Origin: a virus
Reading direction: 5' to 3' (one strand)
IMG/VR virus record: IMGVR_UViG_3300042990_000020
Span: 1 to 24,683 of that record
Length of the DNA stretch: 24,683 nt
The notes below the pieces were generated by a model. It was not told the DNA's origin. It searched no databases and worked only from the letters and a program-made list of their open reading frames with translations. How positions within the stretch are numbered: the stretch's first letter is position 1; each line of letters opens with the position of its first letter. Positions 6,592 through 22,248 of the stretch are shown one piece after another. A program made the position numbers and the translations under genes.

Positions 6592-7677
6592 TCAATAATG
6601 CAAAGCACAGCTAAACATATCGGACTTTTCGGGCAGGCCTACGGATGCCCCAAGTGTAGCTATATTCTTGGCCGCATTAATATCGGCATCAAACACAGCA
6701 ACACAGTTTGTACATTCAAATACTTTCCCTTTTCGATTTCCAACGTGATGGCAAACGTGGCATGTCTTACTGGTATATCGTGGATCAATCAGCACGACAG
6801 GAATGCCAGCCAAATTAGCCTTGTATTGAATGTAATTACGAAGCTGATTAAAAGACCATTTACCTACACGACTTCTAAACTTTTTTCCTTTTTTCAAAGA
6901 AGAAAAACGGACGCCTTTCAAGTCTTCCAAAGAAATACCCTTTCTTTCTGCAACAGCAATGGCAACAATTTGTTTAGCAATCGTGTGGTTAATAATCGAG
7001 GTCGTAGTACGCTCCCTGCCGGAAAGCCTTTTCAAGAGTTTTTTAGAACCTCTTGTGCGTTTGCTTTGAACAGAACTACGAACTTTTTGTCTTTTTTCTC
7101 TATAGGTAGTAAGTTTTTTAGAACAAAATTCTTTACCATTACTAAGCGTTGCAATGGAAACGAGGCCAAAGTCAACACCAATAAAACTCTCAATATCCTT
7201 AATAGCTTCATCGGGTACATCAACGGTTTGAAAAAGGTAGTACTTGCCTTTCTTAAAAACCAAATCTGCCTCACCTTTAATGTATGGAAGATAATTTCTG
7301 TTATGGCATACAAATGGAATTTTCAATCTGCCAATAACAGACCAGATAGAAACGGTGTCGTTTGGTCTGTAAGTGAGAATACGGCTATCATAAGTAATGC
7401 CGCCAAGCGGTTTAAAGGTTCGCTTTGTTTTTTTATCCAATTTATAAGCGTCGGCAACCTTAGAAATACAACGAATCAAAACTTGTGCGCTGAGATTAGA
7501 AGAAGTTTTAAATTTATGGTAAACTTCCTTATGCAGCTTAAATTGATTGAATATTTTCAACTGCCACGCCGTTTCCGAAATACTATTGCAAACAGTATTT
7601 GCCTCTTTAATCGTTTGGAGCAAACCTTTCGCTTGTTCATCCGTTGGCAACAACTTTATTTTCAATGTCAATTTCAC
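6592..7677 (-). CDS. tnpB: TnpB RNA-guided endonuclease
   Basis: Start set at GTG 7677 (VKLTLKIKLLPTDEQAKGLL matches the family N-terminus; TTG 7695 is an alternative). With numbering from 7695, the RuvC catalytic residues are all present: D175 in IGVDFGLVS, E257 in ISLEDLKG, and the DADINAAKNI motif at 336-345. Between the last two lies the zinc ribbon C312-x2-C315 ... C328-x2-C331. TnpB is the RNA-guided nuclease ancestral to Cas12, which uses an omega RNA from the element's right end. Length and motifs suggest an intact protein. A long open frame on the opposite strand is a shadow. Confidence 0.9.
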   Translation of the reverse strand: MKLTLKIKLLPTDEQAKGLLQTIKEANTVCNSISETAWQLKIFNQFKLHKEVYHKFKTSSNLSAQVLIRCISKVADAYKLDKKTKRTFKPLGGITYDSRILTYRPNDTVSIWSVIGRLKIPFVCHNRNYLPYIKGEADLVFKKGKYYLFQTVDVPDEAIKDIESFIGVDFGLVSIATLSNGKEFCSKKLTTYREKRQKVRSSVQSKRTRGSKKLLKRLSGRERTTTSIINHTIAKQIVAIAVAERKGISLEDLKGVRFSSLKKGKKFRSRVGKWSFNQLRNYIQYKANLAGIPVVLIDPRYTSKTCHVCHHVGNRKGKVFECTNCVAVFDADINAAKNIATLGASVGLPEKSDMFSCALHY

Positions 7678-7717
7678 CAAACAAACATAATTCAATTATT
7701 TGAAATAACAAAGGACT

Positions 7718-8126: not shown

Positions 8127-8453
8127 TTAATACTTTAAGGTAAGAAGTTTAACTGCATTCATTTGTGCATTCAGGATTTCTCCAATAGTGTGATGATACA
8201 ATACGTTTTTAAGTTCAGTGATTTCATTGTTCTGGTAGTCGGCATAAACGAGGTCTGCAAGTTCGGCACAAAGCCTTTTTGCTTTATCTACTCCGCTATC
8301 GTTCGACGGGTTGAATGTTAATCCAACAAGCCGTTGCCCAAATGTTAATGTCAACTGCGGCGCAGGTGTTTTTGTCGCTGACACATCAGAAAGCGCTTGT
8401 TTCATTGCTTCGTTTGTAGCCTCCGAAGAAAAGGCATCTCTTGATTCCGGCAT
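8127..8453 (-). CDS. Acb2/Tad1-hairpin-like candidate cyclic-nucleotide sponge
   Basis: 108 aa. Residues 38-52 read FGQRLVGLTFNPSND and the C-terminus QMNAVKLLTLKY, bracketing a helical hairpin (VDKAKRLCAELADLV ...). A GxxxVGLxFNPS entry, an AE-rich helix and a final QMxAVKxxT helix are, as I recall them, the signature of small phage proteins grouped as Acb2/Tad1 hairpin domain proteins. Characterised members sequester cyclic oligonucleotide or gcADPR signals of CBASS and Thoeris defence. The first 34 residues are low complexity (SEATNEAMKQALSDVSATK). It is last in a leftward accessory operon. The family call rests on memory of the motif, so it is probable, not certain; ligand is unknown. Confidence 0.55.
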   Translation of the reverse strand: MPESRDAFSSEATNEAMKQALSDVSATKTPAPQLTLTFGQRLVGLTFNPSNDSGVDKAKRLCAELADLVYADYQNNEITELKNVLYHHTIGEILNAQMNAVKLLTLKY

Positions 8454-8472: not shown

Positions 8473-8763
8473 TTAAAAAAGGGGAGGGTGGAAAATCTTT
8501 TTACATTTTTTGCAAGTTACTGCGCCACCGCAAATCGGGTCGTCAATATCCTGCTGGTGTTCGTAAATTAATCTATTTCTCATTGGGGCGGTGAATGATG
8601 CCCATTGTCTGAATGTATGCCAATAAATAGTTTTCCCCGACTGAGTAAAATGAACTTCGTCACCACTCCAATCATGCTGACATTTATCGGGAATACCGTC
8701 AACGAAAGCGGTAGAACCATTTCCTAAATCAATAAAAGCACTATGGGTATTACTATCAAACAT
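8473..8763 (-). CDS. Hypothetical protein with Cys/His metal-site motifs (96 aa)
   Basis: N-terminal half is short strands (FIDLGNGSTAFVDGIPD). CQHDW at 28-32 and CKKCKKIFH at 83-91 resemble the two halves of a zinc ribbon, interrupted by about 50 residues rich in aromatics (IYWHTFRQWASF). Function unknown. It lies 19 nt upstream of the Acb2/Tad1-like gene in the same direction, and one might be part of the same accessory set. Confidence 0.65.
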   Translation of the reverse strand: MFDSNTHSAFIDLGNGSTAFVDGIPDKCQHDWSGDEVHFTQSGKTIYWHTFRQWASFTAPMRNRLIYEHQQDIDDPICGGAVTCKKCKKIFHPPLF

Positions 8764-11424: not shown

Positions 11425-11819
11425 TTTGAATTAGTATTATACCATTTGATGAAATCAATTACTGCAAACCACGTTGCTTCGATTAAAGTATCGGCCTCAA
11501 ATAACTGACTCGAATTAATCCTAACCATTGTTTTACCCTCTGGGGAAGTCATACCGAATGTTCTCGGATAGTAAGTATCTTGAATTGTTGCGTTTTCCCA
11601 ATCAGTCCGAATCTTACTTATTTTTTCCACTACAGGCATAAGTAATGACCAGTTTTTATGGTAAGAAAACTCTGTTTCCTTTACTGATCTCTCCCATTCG
11701 TGTTCTCCATCCTCAGCCATATACCGGCCCGACTTTACAAACCTGTTACCATGTTTGTTCCATCCATCGAATTCAGCAATAATCCCATTCCCCTCTCCCT
11801 GTGTTTTGTCGGCTGTCAT
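11421..11819 (-). CDS. Hypothetical phage protein (132 aa)
   Basis: N-terminus MTADKTQGEGNGIIAEFDGW begins with a further weak form of the GE-type start cassette. Core motifs NWSLLMPVVEKISKI and TLIEATWFAVIDFIKWYN are of a kind I recall from small Bacteroidota phage proteins; no activity is known to me. Start overlaps the stop of the upstream gene (ATGA), and its stop overlaps the next start. Confidence 0.7.
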   Translation of the reverse strand: MTADKTQGEGNGIIAEFDGWNKHGNRFVKSGRYMAEDGEHEWERSVKETEFSYHKNWSLLMPVVEKISKIRTDWENATIQDTYYPRTFGMTSPEGKTMVRINSSQLFEADTLIEATWFAVIDFIKWYNTNSK

Positions 11820-12229
11820 GGTAAAATAATTTTAAGGAATGAAGTAATCCTGCCCATTGACGGTGTTTTAAGGTATTCTGTCCAATGATTTATTTCCCCG
11901 GATGGACAATAGACAACCCCATTTTTATAAACCACCCAATGCCCGTTATTCTTTCTCCAATCGTATGTTATTTTAAGAATAGCGGTTTTTGAGAAAAAAA
12001 CATTTGATGAATTGCGGGTTAGTTTTTTATCACTTACTACTTTAAATATTTTCAAAGCAGCGTGAAGCTCTCTTGTTCTGGTTGAATGTTTATGCCCAAC
12101 TACTTTTATTACTTCTTCAATGGGGCGATTTGTAACCATAGCCACACAACATTGCCCACAAATGGATGATCCTTTCGGCTGAGTAACCATTTTAACGCCC
12201 TTAATCTCCCTGTCGGTTGTCGGCTTCAT
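11816..12229 (-). CDS. C39-like papain-fold cysteine protein
   Basis: 137 aa. QPKGSSICGQCCVAMV at residues 17-32 fits the C39 peptidase entry (Q....C G..C ..M): Q17 as oxyanion-hole residue and C24 as catalytic Cys. The histidine motif is GHWVVYKNGVVYCPSG with H97; the usual following Asp appears replaced (YCP instead of a YDP-like motif). C39-like folds cleave peptides, sometimes double-glycine leaders. M14 is an alternative start. A cysteine protease in an accessory phage operon could act on host or phage proteins; target unknown. Fold call is moderate, activity uncertain. Confidence 0.6.
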   Translation of the reverse strand: MKPTTDREIKGVKMVTQPKGSSICGQCCVAMVTNRPIEEVIKVVGHKHSTRTRELHAALKIFKVVSDKKLTRNSSNVFFSKTAILKITYDWRKNNGHWVVYKNGVVYCPSGEINHWTEYLKTPSMGRITSFLKIILP

Positions 12230-21017: not shown

Positions 21018-21359
21018 ATGAGTATAAATTATTCTCCTCTTGAAGATCGCGTTTTACTAAAAGCTGTTAAAAAGAACGAGATTGAAACAACAGCATCCGG
21101 CATAATCATTCCCGATACCGTTAAAAAGCAAGTGTGCGAAGCCGAAGTTGTTGCCGCTGGTGATGGTGTTTATGCAAAAGATACCGGGAGTTTGATACCA
21201 ACCTACGTCGTTCGTGGAAATATAGTATTGGTTGGTGCAAACGAAGGGAAGCCAAACGGACTTGAAATAGAAATAGAAACTGATACAGGAAAAGAGACGG
21301 TTTATATCCTTAGGGAAAGCGACATTCTAATGATTATCAAGAAAAAAGACAAAGAGTAA
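21018..21359 (+). CDS. Phage GroES-like co-chaperonin
   Basis: 113 aa. YSPLEDRVLLKAVKKNEIET, ASGIIIPDTVKKQVCEAEVV (GroES mobile loop and after) and VYILRESDILMIIKK at the end fit GroES throughout: L.DRVLvk, asGIiiPDt, aeVVAaGdGv, iLreSDIL. Phage GroES homologues replace the host co-chaperonin in folding the major capsid protein, as T4 gp31 does. It is in the rightward late region before the structural genes, where such a gene is expected. Slightly larger than host GroES because of an insertion after the mobile loop. Confidence 0.85.
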   Translation: MSINYSPLEDRVLLKAVKKNEIETTASGIIIPDTVKKQVCEAEVVAAGDGVYAKDTGSLIPTYVVRGNIVLVGANEGKPNGLEIEIETDTGKETVYILRESDILMIIKKKDKE

Positions 21360-21399: not shown

Positions 21400-22248
21400 T
21401 TGACTTCAGCACCCATTTCCTGTGCCTTATTGACTATACCACAAACATTTCAAGACGAAATAATTACTCCGTCCGGCATCAAACTTTTTTATGATGGTAG
21501 TTTTAGAAAAGAATGGAGCGCAGCCGTGGTCGGAACGATTGCCAAGCTCCCGATAAATACCCATCCAAAAAACAAAAAAATATTAGAGCAGCTTCAGGAA
21601 GGCGACGAAATATGCTTCAGTTATCAAGTTGTATATGACCTATCTTATGGTTCAGATAGCGGAAGGTTCATGCAAGCTACCGAAAATAATGACTATTATA
21701 AAGAGTTCATAAACGGCAGGGGCGAAAAAGTAAGGGTTCAGGCAATGCCCAAGCGTTCCGGACTGAAAGGTATTATTTGGGCTGCGCTATACCTTGATAA
21801 AAGAGGTGAATTAATTGATGGAGTTCAGGGGGATGAATCAACTGTGGAAAAATGGCTCTCTCAGTTCCCATTCGGAAAGGCTGATGAGTTTACTTTTAAT
21901 AATTTTTTTGAGTACAACGGCAAGGATTATTGGAAATGCGAACTCGATGAAATATTTGCGATCAAAAAGAAGGGGCATTTGGTTGCAGTTGGCAATAGAA
22001 TTATTTGTAAGCCGGTAGATGAAGAAATCCAAGATCAATTTTTTATTGATGGAACAGGGTTTCCGCAAAAAGTAATCATAAGACGGAAAGATCGTGGTCG
22101 TGTTATTAGCGGGGGGAAAGAAAAAGGAATTAAAAAAGACGATGTGATTTCCTTTGACCCACGACACTGCGAGCGTTACGAATTTTTTGGAAAGCAATAC
22201 TTTCTTATAAAACAAAATATGGTTCTCGGTAAATTCAGTAAAAACTAA
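21400..22248 (+). CDS. Two-domain GroES-like protein, 5' end possibly frameshifted
   Basis: 282 aa in this frame (TTG 21400). The first half, CALLTIPQTFQDEIITPSGI then KLFYDGSF and a VVGTIAKLP segment, and the second half, GNRIICKPVDEE, RGRVISGGKEKGIKKDDVIS and YFLIKQNMVLGKF, both follow the GroES strand order (entry strand, mobile loop, GrV.a.G, GDev.f, final iLire-like strand). It looks like a fused double co-chaperonin. An ATG at 21390 begins MPKLDFSTHF in another frame and joins naturally to CALLTIPQTF by a +1 shift at TTC-C-TGT, so the true N-terminus may use that ATG. Fold call is by pattern only. Confidence 0.55.
   Translation: MTSAPISCALLTIPQTFQDEIITPSGIKLFYDGSFRKEWSAAVVGTIAKLPINTHPKNKKILEQLQEGDEICFSYQVVYDLSYGSDSGRFMQATENNDYYKEFINGRGEKVRVQAMPKRSGLKGIIWAALYLDKRGELIDGVQGDESTVEKWLSQFPFGKADEFTFNNFFEYNGKDYWKCELDEIFAIKKKGHLVAVGNRIICKPVDEEIQDQFFIDGTGFPQKVIIRRKDRGRVISGGKEKGIKKDDVISFDPRHCERYEFFGKQYFLIKQNMVLGKFSKN

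Follow-up and report, generated by a model that had tools for sequence, protein, structure and literature searches.

Acb2 and Tad1 are the closest described relatives of the protein analysed here. Acb2 blocks CBASS as a homohexamer that takes up cyclic oligonucleotides, and T4-type Acb2 is a proven cGAMP sponge. In the PaP2 protein, Lys26 is taken here to be a ligand residue, and Arg67 and Thr74 presumably belong to the cyclic-trinucleotide site. T4 Acb2 carrying Y8A is binding-deficient and T68M lowers its binding; wild-type T4 Acb2, unlike Y8A, sets off Panoptes toxicity (PMC12657230). SPO1 Acb4 reportedly rescues T4 delta-acb1 in an E. coli CBASS strain (PMC11722364).

The window, i.e. the whole stretch of DNA that was analysed (24,683 nt), is a 24.7-kb virus contig which is probably a fragment. 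An ORF on its minus strand at 8127–8453 (ATG at 8453–8451, stop codon at 8129–8127) encodes a protein of 108 amino acids, as seen from the ORF list and an alignment of 37 members. The first-pass annotation had placed a candidate anti-defence protein at these coordinates, which are correct for the minus-strand ORF, and both segments it had singled out, FGQRLVGLTFNPS and QMNAVKLLT, are present in the product exactly as quoted. The plus-strand frame of the same interval is interrupted by stops and the minus-strand frame is open; the hairpin ORF is a genuine conserved gene rather than a chance ORF. It is the final member of a co-directional minus-strand series, which includes a homologue of the DNA polymerase III beta-clamp and a primase/polymerase-helicase, and follows at a distance of 19 nt a 96-aa gene (8473–8763, minus strand), with which it likely shares a transcript. 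For this upstream neighbour, no match was obtained in Pfam or PADLOC and no family was assigned. The nearest relatives of the window primase are those of Cellulophaga phages, and a relative of the hairpin protein with 67% identity sits in a Bacteroidia MAG; on both grounds the virus is likely a Bacteroidota phage, in agreement with the context proposed earlier.

Neighborhood comparison revealed few genes common to the window and the relatives' loci, so that synteny gives no direct functional clue at the window locus. Near the hairpin gene, on its downstream side, a TnpB-like transposase is encoded at 6592–7695 on the minus strand (PHROG 506, 6e-45; Cas12f-like in PADLOC, 8e-38). A 137-aa protein encoded at 11816–12229 (minus strand) resembles, by eye, a small C39/papain-type cysteine peptidase (GQCCVAMV, HWVVY), its sole match being PHROG 4049, of unknown function. 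An Rfam search of the whole window gave no match anywhere.

Using the single window protein as query, tblastn located 58 related loci in IMG/VR; with the family alignment as query, at least 541 IMG/VR loci and 19 loci in bacterial contigs were matched. Conservation is limited to the last 73–75 residues, with 13 invariant columns among the 37 aligned members. The N-terminal tail (residues 1–33; 8355–8453, minus strand) varies, is missing in most relatives and was modelled at lower pLDDT, and the conserved hairpin core spans residues 34–108 (8130–8354, minus strand). The family consists of two clades parted by a single branch (SH-aLRT 92), namely the window clade with the motif GEILNAQMNxVKxLT and a sister clade with the motif AITExQxAQMWAVKAxTW. 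Judged by their profile comparison (hhalign; 99.8%, E 1.4e-27), the two are without doubt related. The window gene belongs to an unstudied branch of Acb2-like proteins.

Searched alone, the window protein matched no Pfam family, direct sequence searches of PADLOC and the PDB yielded nothing usable, and PHROGs returned one weak match of unknown function. The relatives provided the connection: PF24729, the "Acb2/Tad1 hairpin domain" (curated cut-off 27 bits), was matched by 33 of the 37 aligned members (window excluded; best E 8.7e-13), with 48.1 bits for L016 and 42.4 bits for L050, as compared to 71.4 bits for T4 Vs.4/Acb2. Sister-clade members scored above the cut-off (42–48 bits), whereas window-clade relatives stayed below (14–21 bits). 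An Acb2-only profile, built from PaP2- and T4-type homologues without leaning on the Pfam label, retrieved 44 of 8,070 neighborhood ORFs at E ≤ 1e-3 (best 1.8e-5), all of them family members of the sister clade, and no non-family ORF. The window protein scored 1.0 bit against this profile; single scores of window-clade members were low, yet as a group they ranked above length-matched ORFs (rank test p 2e-32). In hhalign, the sister clade aligned to Acb2 with 94% probability (E 1.3e-7) and the window clade alone weakly, with 6.6%; reversed-profile controls gave less than 1%. Homology to Acb2 thus has good sequence support at the level of the family; the window protein is tied in transitively, through its relatives. 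A separate search of PDB sequences with the family profile returned designed proteins and ribosomal S2 fragments only, which were judged to be chance matches.

The hairpin core was modelled with AlphaFold2 from 83 sequences (pLDDT 96.1, pTM 0.83). The model predicts a short N-terminal helix (residues 38–43) and two long antiparallel helices at residues 53–75 (8229–8297, minus strand) and 80–105 (8139–8216, minus strand), the second of which carries the window-clade motif. Two long antiparallel helices are the feature required for PF24729, and the predicted layout agrees with the Acb2 protomer as described (PMC10419184). No beta-strands occur in the full or the core model. The top two matches of a BFVD fold search (probability 1.00) were named Acb2/Tad1 hairpin domain-containing protein; both are sequence relatives and thus not independent of sequence. 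When the full model and the core were each compared with the PDB by Foldseek and VIA-align, no Acb2, Vs.4 or Tad1 chain was among the matches listed, which were generic helical hairpins, AcrIIC4 included, at E of about 1 or worse and Z of 5–7. We read this silence as low power of fold searches with a two-helix monomer and not as counter-evidence. Membership in the Acb2/Tad1 hairpin superfamily, as put forward in the first-pass annotation, is supported by the relatives' PF24729 matches, the Acb2-only profile and the predicted architecture. The structure comparison it had called for gave a divided answer, agreeing for the top predicted viral structures and failing to recover solved Acb2 with Foldseek. 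The family guess is correct at superfamily level, leaning towards Acb2 rather than Tad1.

Putative ligand-site columns were compared in a joint alignment of Acb2 with 98 family members. The column of Tyr11 (PaP2) and Tyr8 (T4) holds Phe in 98 of 98 members, in the window protein Phe47, the first residue of an FNPS motif (residues 47–50; 8304–8315, minus strand). Lys59 (8277–8279, minus strand) falls into the column of Lys26 (PaP2) and Lys23 (T4), by hhalign as well as by the joint alignment, with Lys in 97 of 98 members. Lys is equally frequent (97/98) in the column of Arg85 (PaP2) and Arg79 (T4), occupied in the window by Lys102 of the QMNAVK segment (residues 97–102; 8148–8165, minus strand). 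As the N-terminal part of the alignment crosses a three-residue gap, the Tyr–Phe correspondence is less sure than that of the Lys residues. The columns of PaP2 Arg67 and Thr74 are kept in 45/47 and 44/47 sister-clade members, respectively, and lost in the window clade: the window protein carries Val at the former and Gly91 (8181–8183, minus strand; column of T4 Thr68) at the latter, where Gly is found in 49 of 51 window-clade members. What emerges anew from the sequence comparisons is that the window sits in a diverged clade, under the Pfam threshold and devoid of Arg67 and Thr74. T4-type Acb2 likewise lacks conserved Arg67 and Thr74, hence these residues are not needed in every Acb2, and a dinucleotide sponge stays plausible.

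Taking these data together, we assign a probability of roughly 55% to the hairpin protein being an Acb2-type cyclic-dinucleotide sponge and a divergent representative of the superfamily's Acb2 branch; oligomerization, ligand and anti-CBASS action are most likely on the analogy with Acb2. The protein would be made during infection, and its helical hairpin would drive assembly into a ring of few protomers, six in the case of Acb2. Pockets between protomers may then hold a cyclic dinucleotide through the N-terminal aromatic Phe47, Lys59 and Lys102, and a CBASS-type signal would be kept away from its effector by sequestration, not hydrolysis. For the window clade, dinucleotide binding and little trinucleotide binding would be expected, the latter because Arg67 and Thr74 of PaP2 Acb2 have been lost there. 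Against a sponge stand the lack of a direct Pfam match, the score of 1.0 bit, the 6.6% in hhalign, the missing PDB match to Acb2, Phe in place of Tyr, the shorter spacing and the rarity of anti-defence neighbors.

This rarity is apparent from the relatives' loci, where a Tad1 gene adjoins the hairpin gene in one lineage only. In this lineage (L001:5231–5575, plus strand; also L002), a true Tad1 homologue of 115 aa (E 4e-10 to PDB 8kbb) is encoded directly downstream of the hairpin gene, so that two different sponge-type candidates occur as adjoining genes. A second, distinct PF24729 protein (34.7 bits) is encoded at L332:1300–1539 (minus strand) in a GroEL-carrying phage, on a common contig with L284; it ends in ASMWITKAFTHKI, which is close in sequence to the ASMWACRAVF of T4 Acb2. 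These anti-defence neighbors are suggestive only.

It is possible, if unlikely, that the oligomeric hairpin serves as a sponge for a different signal and holds another small molecule, for instance a cyclic trinucleotide, gcADPR or some nucleotide not yet described. Phe in place of the key Tyr suggests an altered specificity, as does the novel window-clade motif carried by helix 2, and the observation that Acb2 and Tad1 sponges accommodate several ligand classes (PMC12043709) was counted in favor of this reading as well. Against it stand the columns of Arg67 and Thr74, which are not retained, the lack of a Tad1 profile match in the family and the absence of the N-terminal beta-sheet of Tad1. 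Tad1 identity was rejected, the Tad1 profile reaching less than 2% probability against the family. The Tad1/Thoeris/gcADPR half of the earlier proposal was not sustained; the window clade has also lost the residues that presumably make up the cyclic-trinucleotide site.

A further new and unexpected observation, made when neighboring genes were surveyed, is the recurrent adjacency of the hairpin gene to GroEL in the window clade. Counts were based on Pfam GroEL (PF00118) and Cpn10, our own GroES profile having been partly seeded with diverged genes unconfirmed by Cpn10. GroEL was found on 16 of 44 window-clade contigs, and on 14 of these 16 it is separated from the hairpin gene by no more than 700 bp, in five cases on the same strand with a gap of at most 10 bp. 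Random placement on the GroEL-carrying contigs would give about 0.7 adjacencies, an estimate that ignores phage kinship. Pfam detected GroEL on none of 35 sister-clade contigs, and Cpn10 on 19/44 window-clade versus 5/29 sister-clade contigs. The hairpin gene precedes GroEL on some contigs and comes after it on others, and to explain the adjacency on the poorly resolved family tree, between 4 and 9 changes are required; variable order and repeated changes show that this is not one frozen arrangement. At the window-clade loci L007, L263, L286, L294, L295 and L316, the hairpin gene adjoins phage GroEL and/or GroES in varying gene orders.

The recurrent link suggests another role for the window clade, in which the hairpin would have been repurposed for phage GroEL/GroES, for instance to aid or regulate chaperonin-assisted capsid folding or to adapt substrates for it, and nucleotide-signal binding would have been lost. 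The adjacency and Cpn10 counts, the absence of GroEL from the 35 sister-clade contigs, the variable gene order and the loss of the Arg67 and Thr74 columns all speak for such a role, which we nevertheless regard as improbable. The majority of window-clade contigs have no nearby GroEL, Phe47 and Lys59 are retained just as they are in sister-clade members, a common operon may reflect common timing only, and the chance estimate leaves out phage kinship. In the window itself, GroES is encoded at 21018–21359 on the plus strand (Cpn10, 60.4 bits), about 12.6 kb from the hairpin gene, on the opposite strand and in a separate transcription unit, and there is no GroEL within the 24,683-nt fragment. A 282-aa gene at 21400–22248 (plus strand) has a Cpn10-like C-terminus (20.6 bits, cut-off 21.1) and possibly encodes an enlarged GroES-like protein. 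Of comparably low probability is the reading that the window clade is a functionally distinct offshoot of the Acb2 fold that works with phage GroEL/GroES, either a sponge scaffold turned chaperonin partner or a sponge inside a phage chaperonin operon.

A mere helical hairpin, i.e. a small oligomeric phage protein whose generic helix similarity to Acb2 has no relation to signal sequestration, is highly improbable: helical hairpins are common folds, the PDB fold searches gave many unrelated ones (Z 5–7) and no direct match of the window protein to Acb2 reached significance, but relatives exceed the curated PF24729 cut-off, the Acb2-only profile matched zero non-family ORFs at E ≤ 1e-3, and the Lys26 and aromatic columns correspond with Acb2.

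If the protein is an Acb2-type sponge, Acb2-like counter-defence would reach many phages, many of them likely infecting Bacteroidota, that are missed by the Pfam threshold, and the predicted specificity would be for dinucleotides only. If the GroEL link is functional, the sponge fold would be redeployable, which would advise caution against anti-CBASS naming from the Pfam label alone.

In comparison with known systems, the window protein is most like Acb2 (T4 Vs.4, PDB 7uq2; PaP2 p26, PDB 8h2j), with which it shares, via its relatives, the PF24729 domain, further the small stand-alone format, a short N-terminal helix with a long helical hairpin, Lys in the Lys26/Lys23 column, a basic residue at Arg85/Arg79 and an aromatic one at Tyr11/Tyr8. 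It differs from Acb2 in having Phe for Tyr, an aromatic-to-Lys spacing shorter by three residues, Lys for Arg85 and a non-significant direct sequence score, and in the absence of Arg67 and Thr74, which the sister clade keeps. With Tad1, the gcADPR sponge (PDB 7uav, 8kbb, 8smd), it has in common the two C-terminal helices defining PF24729; the window family differs in lacking the N-terminal beta-sheet region and a Tad1 profile match, and the window protein in lacking FPCRENALxITKxEEAxxW, the signature of the L001 Tad1 neighbor. The "Acb2/Tad1 hairpin domain-containing" proteins of the sister clade, e.g. A0A411AWH0 of Providencia phage PS3 (49% identity to L010/L016 across the core), share the FNPS and QMxAVK motifs with the window clade, but retain Arg67, Thr74 and the Trp of QMW, all three lost in the window clade, and are encoded on contigs of which 0/35 searched carry GroEL.
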